From positions 62,001-126,000 of the forward strand of contig NZ_JAALFH010000066.1 in assembly GCF_011058255.1 (NCBI RefSeq): DNA of 64,000 bases, given 5' to 3'. The DNA comes from Thioalkalivibrio sp. XN8 (lineage in GTDB: Bacteria; Pseudomonadota; Gammaproteobacteria; Steroidobacterales; XN24). Every line of letters starts with the position of its first letter. Position 1 is the stretch's first letter. The position numbers and the translations under genes were made by a program. Under the pieces are notes generated by a model. The model was not told the origin of the DNA and searched no databases. It saw only the letters and a list, made by a program, of their open reading frames with translations. Shown piece by piece: positions 10,212 through 34,063 of this stretch.

Positions 10212-10232
10212 GATCCCGTATTACACGGGATC
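10212..10232. promoter_or_regulatory. Perfect inverted repeat before antitoxin gene 1
   Basis: Two 8-base arms, GATCCCGT and ACGGGATC, flank a 5-base spacer (ATTAC), 17 bases before the antitoxin ATG. A ribosome binding site GGAGAG lies at 10240-10245. Ribbon-helix-helix antitoxins commonly repress their own promoter through such palindromes, so an operator is the likely role. It could also form an RNA hairpin, but no T-run follows, so a terminator is unlikely. This is the only spacer of this kind between array gene 5 and the cassette. Confidence 0.5.
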
Positions 10233-10249
10233 CGCGACCGGAGAGAACC

Positions 10250-10486
10250 ATGGCCAATCTGACCCTGAGCCTGGACGACGAGTTGCTGCAGAAGGCGCGC
10301 GAGGCCGCGCTGCGTGATCACACCTCAGTCAATGTACTGGTAAGGGAATACCTGGAACGGTATGTCGATGCCCGCAGCCGGCGCATGGAAGCGCTCGATG
10401 CGCTCGATGCGCTCACTGACCGCACAGGCTCTGCCAGTCGCGGGTCCTGGTCGCGCGATTCGCTGCATAAGCGTGGAGCGGGTTGA
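10250..10486 (+). CDS. Ribbon-helix-helix-type antitoxin (cassette 1)
   Basis: 78 aa. The N-terminal LTLSLDDELLQKAREA strand-helix followed by HTSVNVLVREYLERY is the ribbon-helix-helix pattern of CopG-like or DUF6364-like antitoxins paired with PIN toxins. The C-terminal half (about 45-78) is polar and would wrap the toxin. A good ribosome binding site (GGAGAG, spacing 4-5) fixes the start. Three bases separate its stop from the ATG of the broken toxin. It sits between remnant A and array gene 6, so this cassette occupies the site of a lost paralogue. With the toxin disabled, the protein may now serve only as a repressor of this small operon. Confidence 0.72.
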   Translation: MANLTLSLDDELLQKAREAALRDHTSVNVLVREYLERYVDARSRRMEALDALDALTDRTGSASRGSWSRDSLHKRGAG

Positions 10487-10489
10487 GTG

Positions 10490-10786
10490 ATGCGCGTATT
10501 TGTCGACATGAATCATTGGGCGTACCGGCTGGACCGGCGCGACCCTGATAAGTCGGCGTTCATCCGAGACTGGTTGCGTAGCGTGGCCGAAGGGGACGAG
10601 ATCGTGATCAGCACGCACGCGCTTGCGGAGCGCGAGCAGCTGTCCTGGTTTGATGCGCTGATCGCGGAGGCCGCGGTCCGCAGCCGTTGCGACGTGCTCT
10701 ACAGCGAGGATTTCAGCCATGGCCGGAGCATTGCCGGGCTCAGGGTCCGCAATCCTTTTCTTCAGTCGCTTGGGACCGAAACATGA
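10490..10786 (+). pseudogene. PIN-domain toxin with internal in-frame deletion (cassette 1)
   Basis: 98 aa; PIN toxins of this type usually have about 130-140. The N-terminal MRVFVDMNHWAYRLDRR and the C-terminal EQLSWFDAL, LYSEDFSHGR and GLRVRNPF are typical. The middle, from just after VIST (residue 42) to HALAEREQ, is missing roughly 40 residues. That segment normally carries the second catalytic acid (Glu in a VLxE helix). Asp6, Asp55 and Asp74 remain, and the usual VDTN reads VDMN. Nuclease activity is therefore probably lost. The frame is kept, and the TGA overlaps the ATG of array gene 6 (ATGA). ATG 10490 is preferred to the GTG just before it because it begins the family-typical MRVFVD. 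Confidence 0.7.
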
Positions 10787-19194: not shown

Positions 19195-21116
19195 GTTTCT
19201 TCGCCGAGCTCAAGCGCCGCAAGGTGGTGCGCGTCGCGGTCGTGTACGCGGCCACGGGTTTCGCCGTGCTGGAGGCGGCCGACCTGCTGTTGCCGCGCAT
19301 GGGCCTGCCGGACTGGGTGATGAACCTGGTCGTAGCGATGATCGTGCTCGGCTTCCCGATTGCGCTGGTGCTGGGCTGGGCGCTGGAGCTCACGCCGGAC
19401 GGGATCAGGCGCACCGAGGCGGCGCCGGAGCACGTTGAGCCGGGCACGACACCACCGCTGCTCGGTAAGCGCACGGTCCTCGCCAGCGCCTTGCTGGTGG
19501 CCGTCGGGATCGGCCTGTCGGCCGGCTGGTTGCTCAAGTCCAATACCCAGGAGCGGGTCGAACCCGCTGAGGTGGCAGGGTCGGGCGACGTCGGGGTGCC
19601 TGCCCAGGCCGATGCTCAGCAGCCGCCCGAGACGAGGAATCCGGCTGAAATCGAATCAATCGCCGTGTTGCCCTTCGTCAACATGAGCCCCGACCCCGAA
19701 AACGCCTACTTCGCGGACGGAATTTCGGAAGAGCTGTTGAACATCCTGGCCGGCATCGAGGGGCTGAAGGTCGCGTCGCGCACCTCGGCCTTCTCGTTCA
19801 AGGGCAGCAACAGGCCGATCCCCGAGATCGCGCGGCAGCTCGGCGTCCGCCACGTGCTCGAGGGCTCGGTGCGCAAGCAGGGCAACCGGGTGCGCATCAC
19901 GGCACAGCTGATCGAAGCCGGCGACGACGCCCACCTGTGGTCGGAGCGCTACGATCGCGACCTCGACGATATTTTCCAGGTCCAGGAAGACATCGCGCAG
20001 GCAATCACAGTGGCGCTGGAGGATATCCTCGGTACACGCCGGGTCGCCGTCGAGGCGCCGACCAGGAACCTTAATGCGTACCAGCGCTATCTGCATGGCC
20101 GCTCGCGTTTCTATCAGCGTGCCGAGCTGGACCAGGCGATCGAGGATTTTCGTTTCGCGGTCGATCGCGATCCGGACTTCGCCGAAGCCTGGGCTTTCCT
20201 GGCCGCCACCTACTGGATGCAGGGTAGCGCCGGTTATCCGACCGACAACGACCGAGCAGAGATGGCTCGGCTGGCCGGCCTGGCAGCCGACCGTGCGATG
20301 GCGCTGAACGCCGGGATTCCGATCGGCGTGGCGGTGAAAGGCCAGATCGTCACCGACTCGGGGACCCCCGGGGCCGTCGCCGAAGGCATTCGACTGCTCG
20401 AGCGTGCAGCGGCCCTGCCCGCACCAGACACCACGCCGCGGTTGTGGCTGGCGCTGCTCTGGCTGGAGCTCGGGTACGCAGAGCGCGCGCTGCCCTTGCT
20501 GCAGAGTGCCCGGCAATCTGATCCGCTGGTCGGCATCAACAGCGGTGTGCTCGGGATCGCCCACGCCATCGAGGGTCGGCGCGCCGAAGGCGAGCGACTG
20601 GCCCTGGAAGCAGTGGCGCTCGACGGCCTCGACTTCTGGGGCAACTTGCTGGCGACAGACCGACTCCATGACGGGGACCTCGCCGGCGCCACTGAACTGG
20701 TCGCGGCCATGCTGAGCCGGTTGGAAGACGGATTCGAGTCCGAATCACACGTCGCAGCGGCGCTCCTGCAGGCACTGCAGGATCCATCGGTCCGCATGGC
20801 CCACCTTCATTCAATGGAAACCCGGAACTGGGACGGAGAGGGAGAGGACGGGGACTTTTTCGCTGCGTCATTGATGTTTGAGCGTGGCGAGCGCGCGTTC
20901 GGGGTAGCGCAGACCCAGGTGAACAGGCCGTGGGCAATCCTGATGTCGGCATGGCTGCCCGCGATGCAATGGCTGCGCGAGGACCCGCGCTATTTCGAGT
21001 CGATGGAGAGGCGCGGTCGGGTGGAGTACTGGGACAACTACGGCTACCCGCGCGGTTGTCGGCCGATCGATGACTCGGCGGGGCGCCGTCTCGATTGCGA
21101 GGAGATGGCGCAGTGA
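19191..21116 (+). CDS. Array gene 10: FlgO-like/TPR membrane protein, GKRT type
   Basis: 641 aa; ATG at 19191 gives MSFFAELKRRKVVRV and the ATGA overlap with gene 9. Membrane helices at about 13-34, 46-66 and 96-116; its first 80 residues are nearly those of gene 11. The FlgO-like domain (about 156-276) has SIAVLPFVNMSPDPEN, GISEELLN, VASRTSAFSFKGSNRPI, LEGSVRKQG and HLWSERYDRDL, the same group as genes 4, 7 and 15. TPR region about 292-600, with AVDRDPDFAEAWAFLA and SARQSDPLVGIN. The C-terminus has WLPAMQWLREDPRYF and the two-Cys tail with Cys623 and Cys636. So genes 10 and 11 share a membrane domain but differ in the FlgO-like and TPR parts. Confidence 0.86.
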   Translation: MSFFAELKRRKVVRVAVVYAATGFAVLEAADLLLPRMGLPDWVMNLVVAMIVLGFPIALVLGWALELTPDGIRRTEAAPEHVEPGTTPPLLGKRTVLASALLVAVGIGLSAGWLLKSNTQERVEPAEVAGSGDVGVPAQADAQQPPETRNPAEIESIAVLPFVNMSPDPENAYFADGISEELLNILAGIEGLKVASRTSAFSFKGSNRPIPEIARQLGVRHVLEGSVRKQGNRVRITAQLIEAGDDAHLWSERYDRDLDDIFQVQEDIAQAITVALEDILGTRRVAVEAPTRNLNAYQRYLHGRSRFYQRAELDQAIEDFRFAVDRDPDFAEAWAFLAATYWMQGSAGYPTDNDRAEMARLAGLAADRAMALNAGIPIGVAVKGQIVTDSGTPGAVAEGIRLLERAAALPAPDTTPRLWLALLWLELGYAERALPLLQSARQSDPLVGINSGVLGIAHAIEGRRAEGERLALEAVALDGLDFWGNLLATDRLHDGDLAGATELVAAMLSRLEDGFESESHVAAALLQALQDPSVRMAHLHSMETRNWDGEGEDGDFFAASLMFERGERAFGVAQTQVNRPWAILMSAWLPAMQWLREDPRYFESMERRGRVEYWDNYGYPRGCRPIDDSAGRRLDCEEMAQ

Positions 21117-22990
21117 GTCTGTTCGCCGAACTCAAGCGCCGCAAGGTGGTGCGCGTCGCGGTGGTCTATGCCGCCACGGCGTTCGCGGTGCTGGAGGCGG
21201 CCGACCTGCTGTTGCCGCGGATGGGCGTGCCGGACTGGGTGATGAATCTGGTCGTGGCGATGATCGTGCTGGGGTTCCCCATTGCGCTGGTGCTGGGCTG
21301 GGCGCTGGAGCTCACGCCGGACGGCATCCGGCGCACCGAGGCCGTTGCGGAACTCGAACCTGAACAGGGCGATGCCGCTGGCGCCACGCCCGCATTGCTC
21401 GGCAAGCGCACTGTTCTGGTCGCCGGACTGCTGGTTGTCCTCGGCATCGGGCTGGGTGCCGGCTGGTTCCTGCGTCCATTGGGCGCCCCCGAAGGTGCGC
21501 CGGCAAGGGATTCAGCCGCTGAGTCCGATGCGACCGGGCCGGCCGTCACCGACAAGACCATCGCCGTGCTGCCATTCGCCGATTTCAGCCCCGCGAGCGA
21601 CCACGAGTGGTTTGCCGACGGTCTGACCGAGGAGATCCTCAACGCACTGGCGCGGACTCCGGATCTGCTGGTGACGGCGCGCACCTCGTCGTTCCGCTAC
21701 AAGGGGAGCACACTGGACATTCCGCAGATCGCGGCGGAGCTGGGCGTGTCACATGTGCTGGAAGGCTCGATTCGCAGCACGCCGCAGCGTATCCGGGTCA
21801 CGGCGCAACTGATCCGTGCCGCGGATGGTTTTCATGTCTGGTCGCAGACTTATGATCGCGACCCGGCCGATATGATCGAGATCCAGGAAGACCTCGCCCG
21901 CAACATCGCCCTCGCCATGGAAACCACCATGGATCCGGAAGCCTTGTCCGATATGGCGAACGTCGGAACCCGTTCCGTGGAGGCTTATCAAGCCTATATC
22001 AGGGGCATAGCCACCTGGTCTGGCGGCAGGGGATCTGGCGGATCGATCCGGGAAGCCTACGAACTCTTCGAGCACGCGCGTACTCTCGATCCCAGCTTTG
22101 CGGCAGCGCATGCGCACGCTGCGCAAGTCTGGCTATCGGAACTCAACATCAACAGGGCAAACACCGGAACTTTCGATCTCCCGCCGGCGCAGATCGAAGC
22201 CGAGTTCAAGCGGCGGATTCGGCGGGCTATCGAGACTGCCACCACCGCCGCGGAGCGCGCAGGCTATGAGGCGAGCGAGGCCGTGCTGGAGTCGCGCTGG
22301 CGCCGGGCCATCGAGCTCTACCAGGCCTACCTGGCAGAGCGGCCAGGCGATGCGCTTGCAATAGGAGAGCTTCTTAGCGTCGCCATGCGCGCCGGTAGGA
22401 AGGAATTGCTGGAGCGCACGCTCGAGGTCACCTGGGCGGAGTCACAGCTGCGCTACGAAGTGGCGCTTTGGCATATCAACTATGCGTATCGTTCAGGTGA
22501 TTACGCACGTGCTGCGGATCAGTCTCTCGTCCTGCTGGAGCGGTGGCCGGACGGTTTCAACATTCTTTACCAGGCGCATCGGACCCTGCTATGGGACGAG
22601 CGCGTGGCCGCCGCAGGGGAGTTGCTGGAACGCATGACACGCGTCGCCCAGGGGGATGAGCCCTGGGCAATCGTGCCACTGGCGCGCCAGGCCTGCGCTG
22701 AGGGCCGGCGCGCCGACGCCGAGCAGCATCTCGCCAGCCTCGATCCTGAAAACGTGTCACTGCGCTGGCAAATATTGATGGTGCTTGGCGAAATGGAAGC
22801 TGCCACCGAGTTGTTGATGGAACTCGAGCGTGAAGGGCGGACCTATGCGCTGGCTAGCTTCCTGACATATCCGCATTTCGATCCGAGCCCATTCCCCTCG
22901 CTGATGCGCATCCTCGAGCGCGAGCAGGTACAGCGCCCGCCGTTGGTGCCCTTACCCTTTGCCTGCCCGCCGCGGGATCCGGAGGCATGA
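21113..22990 (+). CDS. Array gene 11: FlgO-like/TPR membrane protein, GKRT type
   Basis: 625 aa, GTG start overlapping the gene 10 stop. The N-terminal 75 residues are nearly identical to gene 10; the third helix (about 100-118) follows LLGKRT. FlgO-like domain about 150-270: TIAVLPFADFSPASDHEWF, GLTEEILN, LVTARTSSFRYKG, LEGSIRSTP and HVWSQTYDRD, a rather divergent version. A Gly/Ser-rich loop (WSGGRGSGGS, about 303-312) precedes the first TPR helix pair. The TPR region is poorly conserved, and its codon use looks less GC-biased than the 5' end. There is no two-Cys tail, although a single Cys lies near the end (FACPPRDPEA). The stop overlaps the ATG of gene 12. Confidence 0.85.
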   Translation: MSLFAELKRRKVVRVAVVYAATAFAVLEAADLLLPRMGVPDWVMNLVVAMIVLGFPIALVLGWALELTPDGIRRTEAVAELEPEQGDAAGATPALLGKRTVLVAGLLVVLGIGLGAGWFLRPLGAPEGAPARDSAAESDATGPAVTDKTIAVLPFADFSPASDHEWFADGLTEEILNALARTPDLLVTARTSSFRYKGSTLDIPQIAAELGVSHVLEGSIRSTPQRIRVTAQLIRAADGFHVWSQTYDRDPADMIEIQEDLARNIALAMETTMDPEALSDMANVGTRSVEAYQAYIRGIATWSGGRGSGGSIREAYELFEHARTLDPSFAAAHAHAAQVWLSELNINRANTGTFDLPPAQIEAEFKRRIRRAIETATTAAERAGYEASEAVLESRWRRAIELYQAYLAERPGDALAIGELLSVAMRAGRKELLERTLEVTWAESQLRYEVALWHINYAYRSGDYARAADQSLVLLERWPDGFNILYQAHRTLLWDERVAAAGELLERMTRVAQGDEPWAIVPLARQACAEGRRADAEQHLASLDPENVSLRWQILMVLGEMEAATELLMELEREGRTYALASFLTYPHFDPSPFPSLMRILEREQVQRPPLVPLPFACPPRDPEA

Positions 22991-25032
22991 GCCTGCTTGC
23001 CGAACTCAAGCGCCGCAACGTGTTCCGCGTGGGCGCGGCCTACGTGGTGGTGGCGTGGCTCCTGATACAGGTCTGCGACATACTGCTCGGCAATTTTGGC
23101 GCGCCGGAGTGGGTGTTCAAGTCTTTCGTGGCGCTGCTGGTGCTTGGCTTCCCGCTGGCGTTGCTTCTCTCCTGGGCCTATGAGCTGACCCCCGTGGGCG
23201 TGAAGCGCGCCGCGGACGTTGCCGCGGCAACGTCTGGATCGCAGGCGGGTAAGCCGATCGACTGGCTGATACTCGCCGGCATCGCGGTGGTGATCGTGGT
23301 GATGGTCGCGGATCGCGTCTGGGCGCCGGCCACCACGGAACTGGGCGACGCCCCGGCGAAGATCTCGGAGACGGCCCCGCAGCCCGGAACAGCCCCGCAG
23401 GCCCAGCGTGCAGCCGAGGAGGGCGTGTTCATCGCCGTGCTGCCGTTCGACAACTATTCACCTGATCCCGCCGATGCCTATTTTGCCAGCGGCATGACTG
23501 AGGAGATCACCAGCCAGCTGTCGCGCGTCTCGGCGCTGCACGTGATCAGCCGTACGGCGGTCAGCCGCGCGCTCGAAAGCCGGCTTTCCTTGGCGGAGAT
23601 TGCCGCGACGCTGGGCGTCGGCGCGGTGCTCGAGGGCAGCGTGCGCAAGTCCGGCGACATGGTCCGGATCACCACGCAGCTGGTGGACGCGACGAGCGGC
23701 CAGCATCTCTGGAGCACCGACTTCGACCGGGAGCTGGCCGACGTGTTCGGGATCCAGCGCGATGTGGCGCTGGCGATCGCCGCGGCGCTGCAGGCGGAAC
23801 TCAGTCCGGGCGAGCAGGCGCGCATCGAAACCCCGCCCACGGACAATGTCGCGGCCTACCAGCTCTACCTGCGCAGCCGGGAGTTCTCGTCCGTGGGCAT
23901 TGCGACCAATCGCACGGGCATCGAGCTGCTGCGCCAGGCCGTCGCGCTGGATCCGGGCTTCAGCGACGCCTGGGCGCGCCTCTCGTGGCGCTACACCTGG
24001 GCGGCCCGGCTCGGCGACCTCGATGCCGTCGAGGAGGCCTTCACGACGGCCCGGCGGGCACTGGACGTCGATCCCGAGTCGCCCTTCGCCCACTTCGCTC
24101 TCGGCAGTGCCTACAGCGTCTCCGAAGAGATCGAGGAGAATATCGCGTCTTTCGAGCAAGCTATCGCGCTGGACCCGGACCACTTCACGCTAACGGACCT
24201 GAGCTACAACAATGCGCTGACCGGCAGGTCGGCGGTCGCGCTGGCGCAGATCACTCGCGCCGTGCGCCTGTCCCGGAACGTGCCCAACACGCGCTGGCAT
24301 GCTGCGAATGTCCTAATGAGGCTGGGCGACGAGCAGCGACTGGAGAACTGGCTCGACCTGGCCGCCGCCGAAGGCCTGGAGCTGGGTCGGCTGGACATGG
24401 AGCGTGCCTGGCTGCTGGCGCGGCAGGGGCGCTCGGGGGAGGCCCTCGAACTCCTGCGCGCGGGCCGCGAACGCTGGGACGGCAACGAGGAATTCGAGCG
24501 CTTGTCCGCCGCCATACAGGTCTTCCTCGGGGATTACCAGGACGTGCGCAGCTTCATCGAGCGCCAGGCCGAGATCGCGCCGGCAGCGCGCTTGTATGTT
24601 TTCGGGGCCCCGCGCAGCGTGTTCGCCCAGGTGCTGCTGGACGAGGGGGAGGTCGCGCGCGCCACCGCCCTGTTCGAGGAAACCCTGCGGATACATGAGG
24701 AGATGTTCGACGAGGGTCGCGGCTGGCCGGATCGCTGGCTGCAGTCTGCCGCGATCCACGCGCTGCTTGGGCGGCCCGAGGAGTCGCTGCAATGGCTGCA
24801 GCGCAGTTTCGATGCGGGCTTTTATGTCCCCGACCTGCTTGCCGTTGACCGGCGCTTCGCCACGCTGCGCGATGATCCCCGCTTCCAGGACATCGTTGCG
24901 CAAATGGCTGACGCCCAGGCGGTCCAGCGTGCCCGGGTCGAAGCCGAGGGCATCGCCGCGGAAATGAATGCGATGATTGCGGCTGGGCTGGGGCGGTCTG
25001 CCTCGGCCGGTACCGCGGAGGCGGGGCAGTGA
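22987..25032 (+). CDS. Array gene 12: FlgO-like/TPR membrane protein, VISRT class
   Basis: 681 aa; a GGAGG lies directly before the ATG at 22987 but is too close to be a standard ribosome binding site, so coupling from gene 11 is likely. The membrane domain matches gene 1 (NFGAPEWVFKSF, LLVLGFPLA). Third helix about 93-108. FlgO-like domain about 148-270: FIAVLPFDNYSPDPAD, GMTEEITSQLSR, HVISRTAVSRAL, LEGSVRKSG and HLWSTDFDREL. TPR units include AVALDPGFSDAWARLSW, ALDVDPESPFAHFAL and AIALDPDHF. The C-terminal AVDRRFATLRDDPRFQ box is followed by a roughly 40-residue tail rich in Ala, Glu and Gln that could form a helix. There is no two-Cys tail. Confidence 0.85.
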   Translation: MSLLAELKRRNVFRVGAAYVVVAWLLIQVCDILLGNFGAPEWVFKSFVALLVLGFPLALLLSWAYELTPVGVKRAADVAAATSGSQAGKPIDWLILAGIAVVIVVMVADRVWAPATTELGDAPAKISETAPQPGTAPQAQRAAEEGVFIAVLPFDNYSPDPADAYFASGMTEEITSQLSRVSALHVISRTAVSRALESRLSLAEIAATLGVGAVLEGSVRKSGDMVRITTQLVDATSGQHLWSTDFDRELADVFGIQRDVALAIAAALQAELSPGEQARIETPPTDNVAAYQLYLRSREFSSVGIATNRTGIELLRQAVALDPGFSDAWARLSWRYTWAARLGDLDAVEEAFTTARRALDVDPESPFAHFALGSAYSVSEEIEENIASFEQAIALDPDHFTLTDLSYNNALTGRSAVALAQITRAVRLSRNVPNTRWHAANVLMRLGDEQRLENWLDLAAAEGLELGRLDMERAWLLARQGRSGEALELLRAGRERWDGNEEFERLSAAIQVFLGDYQDVRSFIERQAEIAPAARLYVFGAPRSVFAQVLLDEGEVARATALFEETLRIHEEMFDEGRGWPDRWLQSAAIHALLGRPEESLQWLQRSFDAGFYVPDLLAVDRRFATLRDDPRFQDIVAQMADAQAVQRARVEAEGIAAEMNAMIAAGLGRSASAGTAEAGQ

Positions 25033-26888
25033 GCGCAAAGCAATCCTTATGGGCGGAACTCAAGCGCCGCAACGTCATCCGCGTGGCGTTGTTTTACGTT
25101 GTTTCCGCGTGGGTCCTGTTGCAGGTCGCGGAGACGGTGCTGCCGCTGTTCGACGTGCCTGACGGCGTGTTGCGCGGATTAGTCATCCTGCTCGCTCTGG
25201 GTTTCGTGCCAGTAATGGTGTCTGCCTGGATCTACGAGCTCACGCCCCAAGGGCTCAAGCGCGAGAGCGATCCGGCCCTGTCCGACGCATTGCGCGAACA
25301 AGGAGCGCGGCGGCTGAACATTGCGGTGATCGCGCTGCTGCTGCTGGCGATTTCGTTGTTCGCTTATGAGCGGCTGCTTGGCATCTCAACGTCGCCGGCG
25401 GCGCAAGTCACCGAAGATACCGCGCCGGTGGCTTCCGCTGAGTCGCAATCGATTGCAGTGCTGGCGTTTGCCGACCTCAGTCCGGCCGGAGACCAGGAGT
25501 ACTTCGGTGACGGCATCGCCGAGGAAATCCTGAATGCGCTGGTGCGCCTGCCTGGGCTGCGTGTGGCCGGGCGCACCTCGTCCTTCCACTTCAAGGGCCG
25601 CAACGAGGACCTGCGCACTATCGGTGCGACGCTGGGCGTGGCCCACATCCTGGAGGGCTCCGTGCGCAAGCAGGGCGAGCGGTTGCGCATCACGGCGCAG
25701 CTGGTCCGCAGCGAGGACGGTTTCCACCTGTGGTCGGAGACCTACGACGGCACGGACGCCGACATTTTTGCCCTGCAGGAGCGCATCGCGCGCGAGGTCA
25801 CTCGCGAGCTGAAGGTGGCCTTGGGCGCCGGCGAGGACCAGCGGCTGGTCAACGCGGGTACCACGAATCCCGATGCCTATGCACAGTATCTGCGTGCGAC
25901 CGAGGTGTTCAACCGTCGCGAAACGGGGCGCTACGAAGAGGGCATCGCGTCGGCCCAGCAGGCGCTACGTCTCGATCCCGGCTATGCTCGCGCACATTCG
26001 CGCCTCGCCACGCTCTACTTCTTGTGGGCCAATATCGTTGCGTCGGACCGCTTCGACTCCTTGATGGCCGAGGCAAGCAGCCACGCGAGATCCGCCCTGG
26101 ACCTGGATCCCGGGCTGGCCGAGCCGCACGCCGCGTTGGCGGTGCTTCATTGGGCGAACCGGCGCTTTGTTGACGCCACCGAGGCCATCCAGCGTGCGCT
26201 AGCGGCCGATCCTAATGATTCGACTGCTGTGTTCTGGGCCGCAATTCGTCAATGCATGGTCGGCGCGATCGGCCTTTGCGAGCGTGAACTCGACGACGTC
26301 CTGGCGCTCGACCCGCTGATGCCCAATGCACTGGGCTGGCGCGCCCGCCTGTACGCTTCCTCTGGCGATCTGGCGACGGCGCAGGAGATGGTCGATCGCG
26401 CCCGTGGAGCAGGGCTGAGCTGGGCGGAGATCGCCTGGGCGTACGTTGCGCTCGAACGAGGGGATCGCGAGGCGGCGCAGGCCTACTTCGAGGAGTTCTA
26501 CCGCATCTTCGGTTCCGACCTCACGCCCGAGGCGCCGGCAGCCTTTGCGGCAGTGCGCGTCGGAGATCAACAAGCAAGAGCGCGTGCGCTCGCCATTATC
26601 GATGACTATCTCGCCGCATCGCCGATGCGTATCAATTCGCTGGTTCCCGTGATCCTGGTGGCCATGGGCGAGGCCGAGCGTGGACTCGAAGTGTTTGCGG
26701 ACTACCCGTCGAACAACGACTCCATGTTCCTGGGCGAAGTGCTGGGCACCCACTTTTACCCGAATGCCTGGGCTTCGCCGGCGTTCCCGGCGTTCCTGCG
26801 CAAGACCGGCATCGCCGATTACTGGGATCGCTTCGGCGCGCCGGAGCGATGCCGCAAGGACGCCGATGGCGACTATCGCTGCGGATAG
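25029..26888 (+). CDS. Array gene 13: FlgO-like/TPR membrane protein, VAETVLP type
   Basis: 619 aa; GTG at 25029 overlaps the gene 12 stop and gives MSAKQSLWAELKRRN. The membrane domain (LQVAETVLPLFDVPDGVLRG) groups with genes 14 and 16; third helix about 96-113. FlgO-like domain about 141-262: SIAVLAFADLSPAGDQEYF, GIAEEILN, VAGRTSSFHFKGRNEDLRTI (this block as in gene 6), LEGSVRKQG and HLWSETYDGTD. TPR units: ALRLDPGYARAHSRLA, ALDLDPGLAEPHAAL and VLALDPLMPN. The end is DYWDRFGAPERCRK with Cys608 and Cys618. Its stop is not overlapped by another gene; remnant B follows 9 bases later. Confidence 0.86.
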   Translation: MSAKQSLWAELKRRNVIRVALFYVVSAWVLLQVAETVLPLFDVPDGVLRGLVILLALGFVPVMVSAWIYELTPQGLKRESDPALSDALREQGARRLNIAVIALLLLAISLFAYERLLGISTSPAAQVTEDTAPVASAESQSIAVLAFADLSPAGDQEYFGDGIAEEILNALVRLPGLRVAGRTSSFHFKGRNEDLRTIGATLGVAHILEGSVRKQGERLRITAQLVRSEDGFHLWSETYDGTDADIFALQERIAREVTRELKVALGAGEDQRLVNAGTTNPDAYAQYLRATEVFNRRETGRYEEGIASAQQALRLDPGYARAHSRLATLYFLWANIVASDRFDSLMAEASSHARSALDLDPGLAEPHAALAVLHWANRRFVDATEAIQRALAADPNDSTAVFWAAIRQCMVGAIGLCERELDDVLALDPLMPNALGWRARLYASSGDLATAQEMVDRARGAGLSWAEIAWAYVALERGDREAAQAYFEEFYRIFGSDLTPEAPAAFAAVRVGDQQARARALAIIDDYLAASPMRINSLVPVILVAMGEAERGLEVFADYPSNNDSMFLGEVLGTHFYPNAWASPAFPAFLRKTGIADYWDRFGAPERCRKDADGDYRCG

Positions 26889-26897
26889 GCACCGTAG

Positions 26898-27011
26898 ACG
26901 GAAACGTTCAAGCAGATCATCCGCGACGCCGGGGTGTTGGCGTACTGGCGCGAGCATCGCTTCCCGCCGCTGTGCCGACCGGTGGGGGCGGAGGACTTTG
27001 TATGTGATTGA
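26898..27011 (+). pseudogene. Remnant B: C-terminal end of a lost array gene
   Basis: An open stretch without a start codon encodes TFKQIIRDAGVLAYW, then REHRFPPLCRPVGAEDFVCD and a TGA at 27009-27011. This matches the C-terminal tails of array gene 5 (YWREHGYPPQCRP) and gene 14 (GVFDYWREHGFPPQC), including both cysteines 10 residues apart. A stop lies in frame just upstream (26895), 7 bases after the end of gene 13. The remainder of the gene is gone. The TTGACA of the next cassette's likely promoter overlaps its stop codon. Confidence 0.75.
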
Positions 27012-27050
27012 CATGGTAACATGTAGCACACATGAAACGAGGATGACGGC
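27008..27050 (+). promoter_or_regulatory. Likely promoter/operator of toxin-antitoxin cassette 2
   Basis: A consensus TTGACA lies at 27008-27013. No strong -10 box was found at the expected distance; CATGAA at 27031-27036 is the best placed. The stretch contains short inverted repeats (CATG-GTAA-CATG and ATGT-AGCAC-ACAT) that could bind the antitoxin. GAGGA at 27039-27043 is a good ribosome binding site for the ATG at 27051. The tract is AT-richer than its surroundings. Confidence 0.42.
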
Positions 27051-27281
27051 ATGTCAAGCATGATTCAAATCCGGAATGTCCCGGTGGAAGTGCACCGGGC
27101 GCTGAAGGCGCGCGCGGCGCTGGCCGGCAAGAGCATGAGCGAAATGATCCTGGAGGAGCTGCAGGCGATGCTGGCGCTGCCCTCCGAACAGGAACTGCAT
27201 GAACGACTGGAGCAGGCCGAGCCTTTCGCCATGAAGAAGTCGTCCGCTGCGCTGATTCGCCGGGAGCGTGACGCCGCATGA
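27051..27281 (+). CDS. FitA/VapB-like antitoxin (cassette 2)
   Basis: 76 aa. IQIRNVPVEVHRALKARAA followed by LAGKSMSEMILEEL is the ribbon-helix-helix pattern of FitA/VapB antitoxins that pair with PIN toxins. The polar C-terminal half (about 44-76) would bind the toxin groove. Start at ATG 27051 is backed by GAGGA 7 bases upstream; an in-frame ATG at 27060 is possible. Its stop overlaps the toxin start (ATGA), the usual layout of these operons. Confidence 0.8.
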   Translation: MSSMIQIRNVPVEVHRALKARAALAGKSMSEMILEELQAMLALPSEQELHERLEQAEPFAMKKSSAALIRRERDAA

Positions 27282-27673
27282 GCCGAGTCCTGGTCGTCGA
27301 TGCCTCGGTCGTGGTCGACCTGATCGGGCGGTTCCGGCCGCAGCCGATCGAAGCGTTGCTGTGGGCAAAGGACAGCGTCCTGGCCGCGCCTGAGCTGCTC
27401 GATGTCGAGGTGCTGCAGATCCTGCGCCGGCTGGACAAAGACGGGGCCATTCCGCCGAGCCGTGCGGACGTGGTCGAGCTGTTGCGGGCACTGCGCATCC
27501 GCCGCTACCGGCACTCCAGTCTGCGCGACGCCATCTGGTCCTTGCGCAAGAACATGACCGCATACGACGCGGCATACGTGGCACTCGCGAGCCTGCTGGA
27601 CGCCACCCTGGTCACGCGCGACGCGAAACTGGCCCGCGCGCCCGGTCTCGATATCCAGGTGGTGGTGCCGTGA
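27278..27673 (+). CDS. VapC-like PIN-domain toxin (cassette 2)
   Basis: 131 aa, normal length. PIN ribonuclease fold with all four expected acidic residues: Asp8 (LVVDAS), Glu44 (LLDVEVL), Asp97 (AYDAAYVALA) and Asp115 (LVTRDAKLA). VapC toxins cut RNA, often tRNA or rRNA, and are held inactive by the paired antitoxin; this role is inferred from the family. In contrast to the toxin of cassette 1 it looks intact. Its stop overlaps the GTG of array gene 14 (GTGA), so transcripts of the cassette should continue into the array and translation may be coupled to it. Confidence 0.84.
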   Translation: MSRVLVVDASVVVDLIGRFRPQPIEALLWAKDSVLAAPELLDVEVLQILRRLDKDGAIPPSRADVVELLRALRIRRYRHSSLRDAIWSLRKNMTAYDAAYVALASLLDATLVTRDAKLARAPGLDIQVVVP

Positions 27674-29535
27674 GCGAGCGGCCGGGCCTGTTCGCCGAAC
27701 TCAAGCGCCGCAACGTCTTCCGCGTGGCCATCTTCTACGTGGTCACCGCGTGGCTGGTGATCGAAGTGGCCGAGACCGTGCTGCCGATCTTCGATGTGCC
27801 GGACGGCGTGCTGCGCGGCCTGGTGGTGCTGCTGGTGATCGGGCTGGTCCCGGCGCTGGGGCTGTCGTGGATCTACGAACTCACACCGGAAGGGATCAAG
27901 CGAGACGCCGGCGCGTCCCCGGAGCCGGCGGCCGCCACGAGCCACAAGCTCAACTGGGCCACCCTGGTTGTCGCGGTCGCGGCGATCGGGCTGCTCGTCT
28001 ACGACCGGCTGACGCCCGAGGCGCCGGTTACAACGGTCGAAGCGGAGGCGATTGGCGCAGCCGCGGAGCAGGAGGCAGCGCCCGCTGCGACTCGGCAGGC
28101 CTCCGCGGCCAAGGATGCCTCGATCGCGGTGCTGCCCTTCGCCGACCTCTCGCCGGGCGGCGACCAGGAATATTTTGCCGACGGGATGTCCGAGGAAATC
28201 CTCAACGCGCTGGTGCGGGTGCAGGGCCTGGAGGTGGCATCGCGCACCTCTTCGTTTGGTTTCAAGGGCCAGGAGAGCCTCGGTTTGCCAGTGATCGCCG
28301 AGCGGCTTTCGGTGCGTCACGTGCTGGAAGGCAGCGTGCGCCGTGCCGGCGACAACCTGCGCATCACCGCGCAGCTGATCGACGCCCAGGTGGACCGGCA
28401 CCTGTGGTCGGATACCTTCGATCGCCCGCTCACCGCGGAGAACGTCTTTGCCATCCAGGAAGAGATTGCCTCGGCCATCGTGGTCGCCTTGGTCGATTCG
28501 CTGGGTATCGAGATTGAGGACGAGGTGCGGCTGGCCCACGCCACAGAGAACCTCACCGCTTACGATATGTACCTGCGGGCCCGTGCGCTGTTCCAGGGCC
28601 GCACCGGCCTGGACGAGGCCGACGAACTCTTGCGCCAGGCCCTGGAGCAGGACCCCAATTTCGTCAGTGCCTGGGAGCTGCGCGCGGCGGTGCAGACTGT
28701 GATCGTCGAGTACGGTTATTCGGACCTGCCCACGGAGGAGCATAGGCGGCGTGGCGTTGAGTTCGCCGAACGGGCGCTGGCCCTGGAACCGGACAGCGCC
28801 ATGGCCCTGGCGACACTGGCGAACATGAGGATCACGGCAACGGCGACCTTGGTGGAGCGGCATGACTTCGATGGCATCATCCGCGACCTCGAGCGGGCCA
28901 TCGAGCTCGATCCGCATAACAGCTCGGCGCTTAACTGGCTGGGCATGACGTTCGCCTTCGTCGGTCGATCCGAGGATGCGCTGCGAACTCTCGCCCGCTG
29001 TATCGAGGTGGCGCCCCGGTTTGGTCCCTGTCGCGAGAATCACTACGACAGCTTGTGGGCAGCAGGCCAACCAGAGGAGGCGTACGCCGCAATGCAGGCA
29101 GCGCTGGATGCCGGCGCGGTGGTGTCGGAATACGCCAATTTCGCCCTGTTGGCCCACTTCGAGGAAAAGACGGCCTTCATGCTGCTGGCCAACCAGTCCA
29201 AGTGGCTGCCGGGCTGGCATCGCCACGAGGACCTGTACGAAGCCTTCCGAAACCTGGAGGCCGGCCACACCGAACTGCTGGCGGAGTTGAAGGCGTTCAT
29301 GGGCGCCAGGCCGCCGGATCCGTCTTCTTACGCCGTGGCCCTGTTGGTGCCGCTCGGGGATCATGACGCGATGCCGCTCTTTTTCCTGGCCTGGAACCCG
29401 GAATACGCACGCTACCGTCGTTCGCCGCAGTTCCAGGAATACGTACGCCAGACCGGCGTGTTCGACTACTGGCGCGAGCATGGTTTTCCGCCGCAGTGCC
29501 GGCCGCTGGACGGCGACGAGTTCGCCTGCGATTGA
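27670..29535 (+). CDS. Array gene 14: FlgO-like/TPR membrane protein, VAETVLP type
   Basis: 621 aa; the GTG at 27670 lies in the toxin stop. N-terminus MSERPGLFAELKRRN; helices about 18-36, 46-70 and 96-111. FlgO-like domain about 151-275: SIAVLPFADLSPGGDQEYF, GMSEEILN, VASRTSSFGFKGQESLG, LEGSVRRAG and HLWSDTFDRPL, with the TPEN-like insert TAEN before VFAIQEEIA. TPR units: ALEQDPNFVSAWEL, ALALEPDSAMALATLA and AIELDPHNSSALNWL. The end is the two-Cys tail (Cys610, Cys620) with EYVRQTGVFDYWREHG before it. A 10-base gap with GAGGA separates it from the dioxygenase gene. Confidence 0.86.
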   Translation: MSERPGLFAELKRRNVFRVAIFYVVTAWLVIEVAETVLPIFDVPDGVLRGLVVLLVIGLVPALGLSWIYELTPEGIKRDAGASPEPAAATSHKLNWATLVVAVAAIGLLVYDRLTPEAPVTTVEAEAIGAAAEQEAAPAATRQASAAKDASIAVLPFADLSPGGDQEYFADGMSEEILNALVRVQGLEVASRTSSFGFKGQESLGLPVIAERLSVRHVLEGSVRRAGDNLRITAQLIDAQVDRHLWSDTFDRPLTAENVFAIQEEIASAIVVALVDSLGIEIEDEVRLAHATENLTAYDMYLRARALFQGRTGLDEADELLRQALEQDPNFVSAWELRAAVQTVIVEYGYSDLPTEEHRRRGVEFAERALALEPDSAMALATLANMRITATATLVERHDFDGIIRDLERAIELDPHNSSALNWLGMTFAFVGRSEDALRTLARCIEVAPRFGPCRENHYDSLWAAGQPEEAYAAMQAALDAGAVVSEYANFALLAHFEEKTAFMLLANQSKWLPGWHRHEDLYEAFRNLEAGHTELLAELKAFMGARPPDPSSYAVALLVPLGDHDAMPLFFLAWNPEYARYRRSPQFQEYVRQTGVFDYWREHGFPPQCRPLDGDEFACD

Positions 29536-29545
29536 GGAGTCATAC

Positions 29546-30193
29546 GTGAGCGATACGACCAACGAAACCCGCCGCAGGCTCTTGCGTGGCTCCTTCGGAA
29601 CCGCCGCCTTGGCGGCCAGCGCGCCGCTGGTTGCAGCCACCACGCCGAGACAGTCAGAAGGCCCGTTCTATCCGGTACATGAGCAGCGCGACACTGACGC
29701 CGACATGACGCACATCGAGGGGCATGCCGCGCGAGCCGTGGGCGAGGTCGTCGAAGTGTCGGGGCGCGTGCTGGACGAGGAAGGGAATCCCATAGCGGAC
29801 GCGCTGGTCGATGTCTGGCAGGCCAATTCCCATGGCCGCTACGCCCACGAGCGCGATCGCAACCCGGCGCCGCTGGACGAGCACTTCCAGGGCTGGGCGC
29901 GGCTGATGACCGACGCGGAAGGCCGCTATCGCATCCATACCATCAAGCCGGGCGCGTATCCGGTACGGCCTGACTGGAGCCGTCCGCCGCACATCCACTT
30001 CAAGGTGGCGCGGCGCGGTTATCACGAGCTGACCACGCAGATGTATTTCGCCGGCGACCCGCTCAACGAGCGCGACCTGCTGCTGCAGTCGCTGTCGGAG
30101 TCGGGCCGCGACATGCTCGTCGTGGAGTTTAGTTCGACGGCCTCTGGCGATGCGCAGCAAGGGAAGTTTGATATCGTGCTGAGCCGTGTCTGA
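29546..30193 (+). CDS. Tat-exported intradiol ring-cleavage dioxygenase
   Basis: 215 aa. Intradiol dioxygenases use non-haem Fe(III) to split catechol-type rings between the two hydroxyls. The four iron ligands of the protocatechuate/catechol family can be placed: Tyr99 (SHGRYAH), Tyr128 (EGRYRIHTIKPGAYP), His149 and His151 (PPHIHFKV). VDVWQANSHGRY and QSEGPFYP are family boxes. The N-terminus ETRRRLLRGSFGTAAL is a twin-arginine-like signal, so export of the folded enzyme is likely. The GTG start has GAGGA 7-8 bases upstream. The gene overlaps array gene 15 by 8 bases and is the only enzyme gene in the array. Substrate cannot be told; many exported members of this family are uncharacterised. 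Confidence 0.82.
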   Translation: MSDTTNETRRRLLRGSFGTAALAASAPLVAATTPRQSEGPFYPVHEQRDTDADMTHIEGHAARAVGEVVEVSGRVLDEEGNPIADALVDVWQANSHGRYAHERDRNPAPLDEHFQGWARLMTDAEGRYRIHTIKPGAYPVRPDWSRPPHIHFKVARRGYHELTTQMYFAGDPLNERDLLLQSLSESGRDMLVVEFSSTASGDAQQGKFDIVLSRV

Positions 30194-32036
30194 CCGCAAT
30201 CGCCCCGGCCTGTTCAGCGAGCTCAAGCGCCGCAACGTGTTCCGCGTGGCTGCGGCCTACGTGGTCGTGGCGTGGCTCGTGCTGCAGGTGGGCGACCTGG
30301 CCGCCGATAACCTCGGCTTCCCGGGCTGGTTCATGCCGATGCTGTTCGTGCTGCTGGGGCTGGGCTTCCCGCTGGCTATCGTCCTGTCCTGGGCCTTCGA
30401 GCTGACCCCGGAGGGAGTGCAGCGTACGGTCAGTGTCGATGACGTTCCCCAGCGGCGGCCGGGCGCGGGGCCGCTGGACTGGGTCATTGCGCTCGGCATC
30501 CTCGTGGTGATCGGCATCTTCGTGGTCGATCGCTTTGGCGTGGGGCCTGCAGATCGGGGACCGGAGACGACGGTGGCTGCCCCGACCGATGCTCCTGAAG
30601 ATCGGGATGCCAGCTCGATCGCCGTGCTGGCCTTCGAGAACATGAGTCCCGATCCTGAGAACGCCTATTTCGCGGAGGGTATTTCCGAGGAGATCCTCAA
30701 CATCCTCGCCGACATCGACGGGCTGCACGTCGCCTCGCGCACGTCGGCCTTCTCCTTCCGCGGCACCAAGACCCCGATTCCGGACATCGCCCAGGCCCTG
30801 GATGTCGCACACGTGCTGGAGGGCTCGGTGCGCAAGCAGGGCAACCGCGTGCGGATCACTGCGCAGCTGATCCGCGCCGATACGGACGGCCATGTCTGGT
30901 CGGATACTTTCGACCGCGAGCTGGTGGACATCTTCGATGTGCAGGAGGAGATCGCGCAGTCCATTACCGATGCGCTGGGCGAGGTGCTCGGCACGCGCCA
31001 GGTCTCCGTGACGGCATCGACCTCGGACCTCGACGCCTACGAGCGCTTCCTCCGTGGCCGGGCGCGATTCCACCAGCGTCGGGAGTTTGCCGAGGCCATC
31101 GCGGACCTCGAGTTGGCCGTCGCGCAGGATCCCTCGTTCGGCGAGGCGTGGATCTACCTCGCAGCGGCAAACTCCGTCGCACCGGGCTATTACGAAGACG
31201 GCGCTTTCGATCCCGCCAAGATGCTCCCGGCCGCCCGTCGCGCGATCGAGCGCGCCCGTACTCTGCGGCCGGAAGACCCGATGGTCCTCGCCATCGATGC
31301 GATGTTGCGCGCCGAAGAGGGTGACCAGGTCACGGCTTTGGACCTGGTGCGCCAGGCCTCAGGAATGCGGTCGCAGGACTCGACCCCGGAGCTCTGGTTG
31401 GGCCTGACCTTGTACGTTGCCGGCTATGTAGAAGAATCCGTAGGTGCCTTCGAGCGCGCGGTCGAGATGGACCCGCTGGTCGGGATCAACCACGGTTACC
31501 TGGCTATCGTGTACCTCGCGACCGGGCGCGAGCAGGCGGCCGTATCATTGGCGCGACGTGCCGCGGAGCTCGGCTGGGGAGCCGCGATGTGGGTCTACGC
31601 TATTGAACTGGCGGCGCGCGGTGAGCGCGACCAGGCCCTCGCGGTGCTGCGCGGACTGTCCGATGGTGCCAGCCAGTTCGAGCCTTTCAGGGTCGCCCTG
31701 ATTGCCGCCATCGCTAATCCGAGTGCAGCCGGTGCCAAGCTACAGGTAGATTCCGCGCGACCTCCGGAGGAACTGCTGGCCATCGAGCGCACGGGCGAGT
31801 ATCTCGACCTGCTGGCCGCTACCGCCGCTGCCGGGCCCGTGTCGAACCAGACCGGCTGGTTGCGCATGGCGTGGATACCGACATTCAAGGCAGTACGCGA
31901 GGACCCGCGGTTCTTCAGGGCGGCGGGTGACATGGGCCTGGTCGAGCTGTGGGAGGCGCGCGGCTATCCTGACGGCTGCGCGAGGATGAGCGACGCCGAC
32001 GGCGATCGGCTGGATTGCACGGGGAGCAACGAGTGA
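30186..32036 (+). CDS. Array gene 15: FlgO-like/TPR membrane protein
   Basis: 616 aa, the shortest complete member; the GTG at 30186 overlaps the dioxygenase end by 8 bases, the only such junction. N-terminus MSDRNRPGLFSELKRRN; helices about 20-40, 50-71 and 98-115. FlgO-like domain about 144-264: SIAVLAFENMSPDPEN, GISEEILN, VASRTSAFSFRGTKTPI, LEGSVRKQG and HVWSDTFDREL, the group of genes 4, 7 and 10. TPR units: AVAQDPSFGEAWIYLA and AVEMDPLVGINHGYLA. The end has WIPTFKAVREDPRFF and a variant two-Cys tail in which CARMSDADGDRLDC replaces CRPVDD (Cys598, Cys611). Confidence 0.86.
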   Translation: MSDRNRPGLFSELKRRNVFRVAAAYVVVAWLVLQVGDLAADNLGFPGWFMPMLFVLLGLGFPLAIVLSWAFELTPEGVQRTVSVDDVPQRRPGAGPLDWVIALGILVVIGIFVVDRFGVGPADRGPETTVAAPTDAPEDRDASSIAVLAFENMSPDPENAYFAEGISEEILNILADIDGLHVASRTSAFSFRGTKTPIPDIAQALDVAHVLEGSVRKQGNRVRITAQLIRADTDGHVWSDTFDRELVDIFDVQEEIAQSITDALGEVLGTRQVSVTASTSDLDAYERFLRGRARFHQRREFAEAIADLELAVAQDPSFGEAWIYLAAANSVAPGYYEDGAFDPAKMLPAARRAIERARTLRPEDPMVLAIDAMLRAEEGDQVTALDLVRQASGMRSQDSTPELWLGLTLYVAGYVEESVGAFERAVEMDPLVGINHGYLAIVYLATGREQAAVSLARRAAELGWGAAMWVYAIELAARGERDQALAVLRGLSDGASQFEPFRVALIAAIANPSAAGAKLQVDSARPPEELLAIERTGEYLDLLAATAAAGPVSNQTGWLRMAWIPTFKAVREDPRFFRAAGDMGLVELWEARGYPDGCARMSDADGDRLDCTGSNE

Positions 32037-34063
32037 ACCTGCTGGGAGAGCTCAAGCGCCGCAACGTCTTCCGCGTTGCCATGCTCTACGTGGTGGCAGC
32101 GTGGCTGGTCATCGAGGTGGCCGAGACCGTGCTGCCGATCTTCGAGGTCCCGGACGGCGTCCTGCGCGGCCTGGTGGTGCTGCTGGTGATCGGCCTGGTG
32201 CCCGCACTGGGCTTCGCCTGGATCTACGAGCTGACGCCGGAAGGTCTGAAGCGCGACACCGGCGTCACGGACAACCCCGAGTATTCCTCGGCCACGGGGC
32301 ACCGGCTGAACTGGGCGACGCTGGTCGTTGCTGTCCTTGCTATCAGCTTCCTGGCCTACGATCGTTTCGCGCCCCGTGAGCCGGGTACGGAGCCATCGGC
32401 TGTGACTACGCCGGTTGCCGCGCCGTCGGTTCCCGCCGCTCCGGTCTCTGCTGGAGAGCCTGTTGCGGTCCGGATTTCCGAGCCCGCCCGCGATCCGCGG
32501 CCTTCGGTCGCCGTGCTGCCGTTTGCCAACCTCTCCACCGACTCGGAGCAGGAGTTCTTCGCCGACGGCATGACGGAGGACATCCTGACGCGGCTCGCCG
32601 GCGTCAGCGGGCTGCGGGTGATCAGCCGTACCTCGGTGATGCGTTACAAGAACACCGAGCTGAGCCTGCCGGAAATTGCCGCACAGCTCGGTGTCAGTCA
32701 TGTGCTGGAGGGTAGCGTAAGACGCGCCGGCGATCGGGTCCGGATTACGGGCCAGCTGATCCGGGCGGCCGACGATGCCCACCTTTGGGCCGACAGTTTC
32801 GACCGGGACCTGGCCGATATCTTCAGCGTGCAGACGGAGATCGCGGGTCGGATCGTCGATCAGCTCGAGCTCCAGCTCACTGAGCGCGATCGGCAGGCGC
32901 TGGCGCGCCAGGGCACGACCAATCCGGAAGCCTATGAGCAGGTGCTGCGTGGGCGCGCCATCGCGCGGGGCTCGTACAGCTCCTTCGATGAAATCCTTGC
33001 GATCATCGACGAGGCCGAGAAGCATTTCCGCGCAGCCATTGCGCTTGATGAAAACTATGCCGACGCCTGGGCCGGGATCGCCGGCGTGAATCGAAGCAAG
33101 GCGAATATCGACGAGGATGAGACAGCCGCCCTGGCGGCCTGGAATGAGGCGACGGAAGCGGCGCGTCGCGCGATCCGCCTGGCGCCGGATTCCGCGGCGG
33201 GTTACGTGGCGTTAGGGCAGGCTTACTGGATGCGCGGGCTGACGGAGGCGGCACTGGAGCAGTTGCAGCTGGCGGCGGAAATCGAGCCGGATTCGCCCCA
33301 GGTATTGTTGGCGCAGGGCAGCCTCCTGGCCGGCCGCGGCCAGCTGGTCGCGGCGCTGGAGCGGGCCGAAAGGGCGACGCAGCTCGAGCCGGAGGATTCC
33401 AATGCCTGGGATGCTGCGGCAGGGTTCTACGAGGAACTCGGTGAATACGAGGCGGCACGCCAGGCCTACCGTATGGCATGGGAGAAACTGACGCCCCACG
33501 AGGCGCGGCTCAACTGCATGCTGATGGGCATCGCCTTGCTGGAGAACAACGTCGAGCGCGCCCGGGCGCACATGGCCCGCTTCCTCGAGCTGGAGTCCCA
33601 TTCACCCTTCGCCAGCAGCTGCGCGCTCAATTTCCACCTGTCCCAACGTGACCTGCCGGCAGCGCGTGAGATCGTCGAGCGCCGCAGCGCATTCTTCCTG
33701 GCGCGTGCGGCGATGCGCGGCGCGGTTGTGACTGCGCTCAATGGAGAGCGAGAGGCGGCAGAAGAATTCCTGCGCGCAGTGGAGGCACAGCTCGAACGCC
33801 CGGTGCCGAGAGGTAGCGAGGGTGGCAGTCTTTTCACCCGGTCACGGATTGCGCTCCTGCGCGGGGAGCCGGAGTCTGCGCTCGACTTGCTCGAGCGCGC
33901 GATCGAGGCCGGCTATTGGCCATCGGTGGCTTCGATGGCACGGCAGCCGGAGTGGGATATCGTGCGGGACGACCCGCGCTTCCAGGAGATCCTGGCGCGC
34001 CTCAACGCCGAGCTGGGACGGATGCGGGTGGAATTTGAGGCGCGGCAGGTCGATAGACGCTAG
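32033..34063 (+). CDS. Array gene 16: FlgO-like/TPR membrane protein, last of array
   Basis: 676 aa; the GTG at 32033 overlaps the gene 15 stop. The membrane domain is nearly that of gene 14 (VIEVAETVLPIFEVPDGVLRG). The linker (about 112-155) is long and rich in Pro, Ala and Val. FlgO-like domain about 158-278: SVAVLPFANLSTDSEQEFF, GMTEDILTRL, LRVISRTSVMRYK, LEGSVRRAG and HLWADSFDRDL, i.e. the VISRTS class on a VAETVLP membrane domain. TPR units: AIALDENYADAWAGIA, AIRLAPDSAAGYVAL, AAEIEPDSPQVLLA and ATQLEPEDSNAWDAAA, among the most regular here. There is no two-Cys tail. Its TAG overlaps the stop of kynU on the other strand by 3 bases, leaving no room for a terminator. Confidence 0.86.
   Translation: MNLLGELKRRNVFRVAMLYVVAAWLVIEVAETVLPIFEVPDGVLRGLVVLLVIGLVPALGFAWIYELTPEGLKRDTGVTDNPEYSSATGHRLNWATLVVAVLAISFLAYDRFAPREPGTEPSAVTTPVAAPSVPAAPVSAGEPVAVRISEPARDPRPSVAVLPFANLSTDSEQEFFADGMTEDILTRLAGVSGLRVISRTSVMRYKNTELSLPEIAAQLGVSHVLEGSVRRAGDRVRITGQLIRAADDAHLWADSFDRDLADIFSVQTEIAGRIVDQLELQLTERDRQALARQGTTNPEAYEQVLRGRAIARGSYSSFDEILAIIDEAEKHFRAAIALDENYADAWAGIAGVNRSKANIDEDETAALAAWNEATEAARRAIRLAPDSAAGYVALGQAYWMRGLTEAALEQLQLAAEIEPDSPQVLLAQGSLLAGRGQLVAALERAERATQLEPEDSNAWDAAAGFYEELGEYEAARQAYRMAWEKLTPHEARLNCMLMGIALLENNVERARAHMARFLELESHSPFASSCALNFHLSQRDLPAAREIVERRSAFFLARAAMRGAVVTALNGEREAAEEFLRAVEAQLERPVPRGSEGGSLFTRSRIALLRGEPESALDLLERAIEAGYWPSVASMARQPEWDIVRDDPRFQEILARLNAELGRMRVEFEARQVDRR

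Follow-up and report, generated by a model that had tools for sequence, protein, structure and literature searches.

A putative Tat-exported intradiol dioxygenase recurs in and beside arrays of TolB-like/TPR membrane-protein genes

The window analyzed here is a stretch of 64,000 nucleotides from Thioalkalivibrio sp. XN8. It contains, at 81..34063 on the + strand, an array of 16 genes for TPR membrane proteins together with interspersed genes; neither the 20 kb before the window (L032) nor L033 holds an array-type match. Between array gene 14 (27670..29535, +) and array gene 15 (30186..32036, +), both coding for TPR membrane proteins, we located a gene for an intradiol dioxygenase (29546..30193, +; 215 amino acids, GTG start, stop included). 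A 10-bp gap separates the gene 14 stop from the GTG, and an AGGAG, which resembles a ribosome-binding site and overlaps that stop (29535..29539, +), lies just upstream. The 3' end of the dioxygenase gene overlaps the start of gene 15 by exactly 8 bp (30186..30193, +), as a preliminary description of this DNA had stated, and the placement within the array that it gave likewise holds. The G+C content of the dioxygenase gene, 66%, is that of gene 14.

A toxin-antitoxin pair lies just before gene 14 (27051..27673, +), consisting of a FitA-like RHH antitoxin (27051-27281, +) and a toxin of the PIN nuclease family (27278-27673, +), with the Pfam families PF22513 and PF01850. Each gene overlaps the next by 4 bp, the toxin gene running by this length into the start of gene 14. 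Because a PIN nuclease-family toxin is embedded in the array, the dioxygenase is not its only enzyme gene, as the preliminary description had maintained. The congener G002 has a 95% identical copy of the toxin. Toxin-antitoxin-like pairs are interspersed in further arrays (L037, L059, L169, L208, L209) and, judged by eye, differ between genomes. A short ORF before array gene 6 (10487-10786) matches the C-terminal part of the PIN family only (20.7 bits, cut-off 23.6) and is perhaps a decayed toxin gene. The array end is abutted by a kynureninase gene (TIGR01814; 34060-35331, -), which shares 4 bp with the end of array gene 16. In G002, a second kynureninase gene (L036 1385-2668) follows ∼9 kb after the array has ended.

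PF00775 is the sole Pfam family that the dioxygenase matches over cut-off (131.3 bits, cut-off 27.3, E 3.4e-38). The match spans residues 38-213, the catalytic domain (29657..30184, +), and no other gene in the genome of the window (G000; 67 contigs, completeness given as 100) matches this family. Among solved structures, those nearest to the protein are protocatechuate 3,4-dioxygenase beta chains (PcaH; 2pcd_M, E 1e-31). PcaH beta chains also head the Foldseek search with our structure model (pLDDT 88.4, residues 1-28 below 50), the best fold match being a PcaH chain with E 4.1e-19. We regard the assignment to the intradiol dioxygenase family as well supported by these profile and fold matches. 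The gene is under strong constraint, with dN/dS values of 0.153, 0.163, and 0.159 in three congener pairs. That it is the sole PF00775 match in its genome and has dN/dS in the range 0.153-0.163 argues against its presence by chance.

Two tyrosine and two histidine iron ligands are the mark of the intradiol dioxygenase family. We mapped the protein residue by residue onto 2pcd_M, in which we take Tyr408, Tyr447, His460, and His462 to be the iron ligands; the Foldseek entries for the reference PcaH include mutants of Tyr408 and Tyr447 and a title on Tyr447 in catalysis. Tyr99 (29840..29842, +) corresponds to Tyr408, Tyr138 (29957..29959, +) to Tyr447, and His149 and His151 of the sequence HIH (29990..29998, +) to His460 and His462, and the position of Arg457 is matched as well. 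The four ligand positions, Arg146, and Gln165 are each invariant in the 28 aligned homologues. By this alignment the ligand set is complete, as the preliminary description had claimed, and three of the residues it named (Tyr99, His149, and His151) are retained. Its fourth, Tyr128, aligns with Tyr437 and not with Tyr447, and is kept in 23/28 homologues, the other five having Phe or Trp at this position (among them the array-linked L057 and L059), whereas Tyr138 is invariant. We thus reject Tyr128 as an iron ligand and replace it by Tyr138.

The N terminus has the features of a Tat-type signal peptide (residues 1-31; 29546..29638, +), namely twin arginines at positions 9-10 and a hydrophobic stretch, with a cleavage site that we place by eye after VAA. 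The twin-arginine sequence reads TRRRLLRG (arginine codons 9-11, 29570..29578, +). The RR pair is present in 20/20 alignment rows that reach this position and in all ten members of the dioxygenase clade described below whose N termini were compared, and a hydrophobic stretch comes after it in 69/88 homologues with enough N-terminal sequence; the alignment and tree rows begin at the aligned part of the ORFs, and the start codons of relatives were inspected in one comparison only. The genome encodes TatC (PF00902, 225 bits). The twin-arginine-like signal of the preliminary description is borne out by these features, and we consider a Tat-type signal well supported by sequence. Turning to the array proteins, three hydrophobic segments are found near the N terminus in 15/16 and two in the remaining one. 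Three such segments with a basic N terminus inside would probably place the TolB-like/TPR parts in the periplasm, and an exported dioxygenase would therefore share their compartment.

The description of the neighboring proteins as FlgO-like receives weak backing. In a loose-threshold scan of eight array proteins, PF17680 (FlgO) scores 14.1-16.3 bits (cut-off 22.6) in four and is absent from the listing for the other four, and genes 14-16 have no match at E 0.001; the cut-off for FlgO family membership is thus not reached by the proteins scanned. Pfam detects no DNA-binding domain in the 11/16 array proteins scanned. A likeness to HilA/CadC-type TolB-like/TPR proteins is seen in genes 14 and 15, which match the CadC and HilA/EilA models far under the cut-offs (19.4 and 26.1 bits); the array proteins differ from that type by their three N-terminal hydrophobic segments and by standing in tandem, with up to 19 genes in one array (G002). 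In the taxonomic family of the window genome, TPR genes of this type have multiplied greatly: gene 15 has 21-63 matches per genome in all seven genomes (G000-G006).

We find the dioxygenase inside the corresponding array in both congeners. In G001 it is flanked by the orthologs of genes 14 and 15; in G002 it lies between a gene of the gene-11 group and the ortholog of gene 16, with an antitoxin-like ORF (by eye) before the latter. The conserved array loci that we compared are 81-34063 of the window, G001, G002, L162-L163, L164, L203-L204, and L207-L208. A dioxygenase scan beyond the genus returned 77 loci. TPR genes of the same type precede the dioxygenase in Lysobacterales SP244 (L055), Lysobacter sp. 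CAU 1642 (L057), an Arenimonas MAG (L058), and a Lysobacterales MAG (L059), all four of which belong to the Lysobacterales. In Lysobacter sp. CAU 1642 the array has the dioxygenase as its last gene. In G399 it follows 53 bp behind the last of 11 TPR genes, a series interrupted by DUF6090-like and other genes; in G397, array genes 1-2-3-14 are followed by two other genes and then the dioxygenase, and in G400 an opposite-strand ORF stands between the TPR genes and the dioxygenase. Besides the window, 18 of 32 neighborhoods were examined in one search and 14 more of 30 in another.

A second search, in which array gene 2 and the dioxygenase were sought separately, covered 249 genomes around G399, G399 included. 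Relatives of gene 2 (E 1e-120 or better) occur in seven of them, including G399 and G401, and dioxygenases (E 1e-40 or better) in 22. The dioxygenase is at least 60% identical in five of these 22: three that the first scan had already yielded (G399, G398, and G402) and the new G605 and G405. Both new genomes have gene-2 orthologs (59%) and a dioxygenase that follows TPR genes in the same orientation. The distance from a TPR gene is 122 bp in G405, which does not count independently of G399 because the two are close relatives in the dioxygenase tree. In G605, 8-9 kb separate the last TPR gene from the dioxygenase, an interval that codes for two DUF6090-like proteins, a serine hydrolase, an amidohydrolase, and a protein of the glyoxalase fold. 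In G612 (dioxygenase ∼54% identical) the gene lies between TPR genes, and three of the six new genomes examined (G572, G628, and G598) have a dioxygenase without array linkage. The loci covered are thus those of 10 of the 22 genomes, four known and six new; the other 12 all have at most 53% identity.

The preliminary description had raised the question of whether the gene stands beside TPR genes elsewhere, and it does so both in the congeners and in Lysobacterales genomes; far from being absent from the array in all relatives, it is linked to the array in G001, G002, and other genomes. A chance insertion, one of the two options it had offered, is disfavored as a recent event because the same partnership recurs in other bacteria, and we reject it in this form.

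The arrays themselves have a common history. In a tree of 76 array proteins, the groups of window genes 1, 2, 3, 5, 6, 11, 13, and 14 recur elsewhere, and for each of these eight genes at least one of G397, G399, G400, and G401 has an ortholog, so that these distant arrays are related as arrays and not by family alone. Genes 2-3 are located at or near the 5' end of the array in G397, G399, and G400. The array begins with relatives of genes 1-2-3, in this order, in G001, G002, G397, and G605, and with relatives of genes 2-3 in G399, G400, and G637; the remaining array order is scrambled. In G000, G001, G397, and G399, the TPR gene that most closely precedes the dioxygenase is a member of the gene-14 ortholog group (7/76 rows, SH-aLRT 99). 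The corresponding TPR gene is of the gene-13 group in G400 and G401, whereas G002 has one of the gene-11 group. We therefore reject the gene-14 group as a fixed upstream partner, this being true of 4/7 loci in the tree; shuffling of the gene-14-group label on the array-protein tree gave an uninformative 144/500. A serine-hydrolase-type protein (PF00144) is encoded between the array and the dioxygenase in G397 and G605 (69% identical to each other), and in G002 a 73% identical PF00144 protein is encoded one ORF past the end of the array.

In a tree of 57 dioxygenase homologues, all ten array-linked proteins fall into one clade of 13 rows (SH-aLRT 95; ultrafast bootstrap 91, which is under the tool's mark of 95). 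Array linkage, defined as a position in or downstream of the array on the same strand, is found in 10/13 rows inside the clade versus 0/44 outside, a zero that is partly a contig limit because several outside loci have flanks shorter than 3 kb (array-type genes were sought within flanks of 10 kb or shorter). The linkage label requires 4 changes on this tree, compared with a mean of 9.4 when shuffled, and none of 500 shuffles is as low. Fisher's test gives P 4e-10 on the automatic count of 11/13, with kinship not accounted for; we lowered this count to 10 since the L080 match covers a TolB-like/TPR end with a different N terminus by eye. In this tree, the genus of the window is nearer to Lysobacter-type sequences than to its family-mate G003. 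An earlier tree comprised 83 of 117 homologues (those with less than 41% identity or fewer than 150 aligned residues were dropped), and there the seven array rows then known need 3 changes, again with 0/500 shuffles as low.

The 57 rows are the homologues with at least 43.5% identity, minus 18 removed by hand as near-copies or remote (L013, L074, L077, L084, L085, L087, L093-L098, L104, L105, L111, L125, L126, and L141) plus six new ones. We detected no array-type gene in the 16 removed rows examined; L013 is covered over 1.9 kb only, and L141 is identical to L103 of the 83-row tree, its surroundings (L155) being without an array-type gene. TPR matches that are single genes or partial occur near dioxygenases outside the clade in L042, L049, L052, L116, L151, and L156, of which the three with matches longer than 400 residues (L049, L052, and L116) are absent from the 57-row tree. 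The three unlinked rows of the clade are L054, L056, and L080. One origin of array linkage followed by three losses would be one economical history, and one of these losses would be only apparent if the missing flank of L054 held an array: its stretch ends at a contig end 1.7 kb upstream of the dioxygenase, with a row of DUF6090-like genes downstream.

Dioxygenase and array also occur apart. L080 and G397 share the flanking genes on both sides at 73-90% identity and a dioxygenase at 88%, yet the stretch between the left-hand ORF that both have and the dioxygenase measures 2.3 kb in L080 versus 12.8 kb in G397. Compared with L164 and G397, L080 is without ∼10.5 kb beside the dioxygenase, in which four TPR genes lie together with genes for a DUF4440 protein and a serine hydrolase, and it has ∼2.8 kb extra on the other side of the dioxygenase. 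L056 has the dioxygenase and no array-type gene in flanks of ∼9-10 kb. Conversely, G558, G606, and G637 contain arrays with relatives of gene 2 (48-63%) but lack a dioxygenase match at E 1e-40 or better. G003, from the family of the window, has a dioxygenase (58-60%) and 35 gene-15 matches (E 0.001 or better), none of them on the 15.8-kb contig of the dioxygenase. Gene 2 is matched at E 1e-80 in 40/396 genomes of the order of the window, and clear orthologs (at least 67%) are found, among the matches listed, only in three genomes of its genus. In relatives without an array, no conserved neighbor of the dioxygenase is shared beyond close relatives (by eye). Array and dioxygenase are thus often together yet separable, as L080, G637, G558, G606, and G003 show them apart, and the link is not obligatory.

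We consider it fairly probable that the gene encodes a Tat-exported, single-chain periplasmic dioxygenase that cleaves catechols and is a long-standing accessory of the TPR array. The protein would probably fold with Fe(III) in the cytoplasm before export, would be cut after about residue 31, and would be active in the periplasm, where O2-dependent opening of an ortho-dihydroxylated ring would yield a dicarboxylic acid. Its clade may represent an old accessory of operon-like arrays for inner-membrane TolB-like/TPR proteins, with a position that is often 3'-terminal or nearly so. In the genus of the window, a single message probably serves for the translation of the enzyme and its neighbors, with coupling to genes 14 and 15. 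Its most likely role would be the removal of catechol-type compounds from the envelope, beside whatever the TPR proteins bind or sense. The computations themselves show the family, the complete ligand set, constraint, the Tat-type signal, and the recurrent linkage; we infer export, iron, activity, the shared message, membrane topology, and substrate class, and we regard a joint function of the dioxygenase and the TPR array as plausible.

Alternatively, the array could be a recombining gene row that collects genes, in which the dioxygenase is kept for its own sake and has no functional tie to the TPR proteins. Such a row would account for the interspersed toxin-antitoxin-like pairs and DUF6090-like genes, which vary between genomes, for dioxygenase neighbors in G002 that are unlike those in the window, and for the occurrence of dioxygenase and array apart. 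It fits poorly with a single dioxygenase clade that is array-linked in ten genomes despite the variation (by eye) of the toxin-antitoxin-like genes, with an orientation that is always the same (10/10 array-linked dioxygenases lie on the strand of, and downstream of, a TPR gene), and with the gene-14 group upstream in four of the seven loci. We judge a mere passenger unlikely, though a possibility to be taken seriously.

It is very improbable that the enzyme is an ordinary PcaH beta subunit or a catechol 1,2-dioxygenase of the beta-ketoadipate pathway, even though PcaH chains are its best matches in profile and structure searches (TIGR02422, 176.8 bits; 2pcd_M). The TIGR02422 score stays under the equivalog cut-off of 296.4 bits, and TIGR02439 is matched with 86.8 bits against a cut-off of 392, from profile position 92 of 285; by these NCBIfam cut-offs we reject either identity. 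The genome has no second PF00775 match that could be the alpha-subunit gene for PcaGH. The enzyme shares with PcaH (PDB 2pcd, 1eo2) the fold, the four ligand positions, and the Arg457 position, but it has a Tat-type signal, is without an alpha gene, and has Val140 in place of Trp449. Neither PcaD nor a muconate cycloisomerase is found over cut-off in the genome (the best scores are 108 versus 255.85 bits for TIGR02427 and 65.4 versus 334.95 bits for TIGR02534), and for this reason protection from, or signaling by, catechols seems likelier than growth on them. The other option of the preliminary description, that the array serves a process involving aromatic compounds, may hold, but the enzyme and the array also occur apart, and these two pathway enzymes are missing over cut-off. 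That the protein merely binds ligands on a dioxygenase fold is hardly credible, as nothing direct speaks for it beyond a PF13620 match just under cut-off (30.3 versus 32.3 bits, residues 71-141), whereas the ligand positions, Arg146, and Gln165 are invariant in 28/28 homologues and dN/dS is ∼0.16.

Fungal and spider mite intradiol dioxygenases leave the cell by Sec-type secretion. PMC9167512 lists secreted intradiol dioxygenases from fungi, Streptomyces, and spider mites, and in spider mites ring cleavage by the secreted enzymes is proposed there to detoxify plant phenolics. The fungal and mite enzymes, as this source presents them, resemble our reading of the window enzyme in secreted ring cleavage and differ in being eukaryotic; a spider mite structure (PDB 6bdj, Tetur07g02040) is a remote match to it (E 1.2e-11). 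The secreted SACTE_2871 of a cellulolytic Streptomyces (PDB 4ilt, 4ilv) matches the domain fold with a target TM-score of 0.84-0.87 and is, according to the titles of its records, a fusion with a binding domain, whereas the window enzyme contains only PF00775 over cut-off and sits in a TPR array. An exported dioxygenase is thus not new in kind, because secreted intradiol dioxygenases are already known. In the literature searched, mostly without subscription papers, we found no paper on a linkage between dioxygenase and TPR array, nor did we find a role assigned to large TolB-like/TPR membrane-protein arrays. The recurrent place of the dioxygenase in TPR arrays appears to be the new part.

A recurrent enzyme in the array offers a first biochemical handle on TolB-like/TPR arrays, and if the joint function is true, this would suggest catechol chemistry in the cell envelope as one job of these arrays. 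More speculatively, and with considerable doubt on our side, there might be an as yet undescribed envelope system of Lysobacterales type, in which a bank of paralogous, periplasm-facing TPR proteins and the exported dioxygenase, in some genomes with the serine hydrolase, recognize and destroy catechols; candidate targets would be compounds outside the cytoplasm such as phenolics, quinone precursors, or catecholate signals. G397 and L080 form a natural pair with the same flanks, with and without the array, and together with Lysobacter sp. CAU 1642 they make the linkage directly testable.

A second repeated membrane-protein family, PF19578 (DUF6090; one member scanned, 25 bits versus a cut-off of 23.5), either alternates with the TPR genes or forms rows of its own beside the dioxygenase. 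The loci concerned, of either arrangement, are L057 38-8007, L054 2366-6876, and L171 5314-10770, and also in L167 and L209; we found no paper that names DUF6090 in the literature searched (again mostly without subscription papers). Acetyltransferase-like ORFs adjoin the dioxygenase in L038 and L041.
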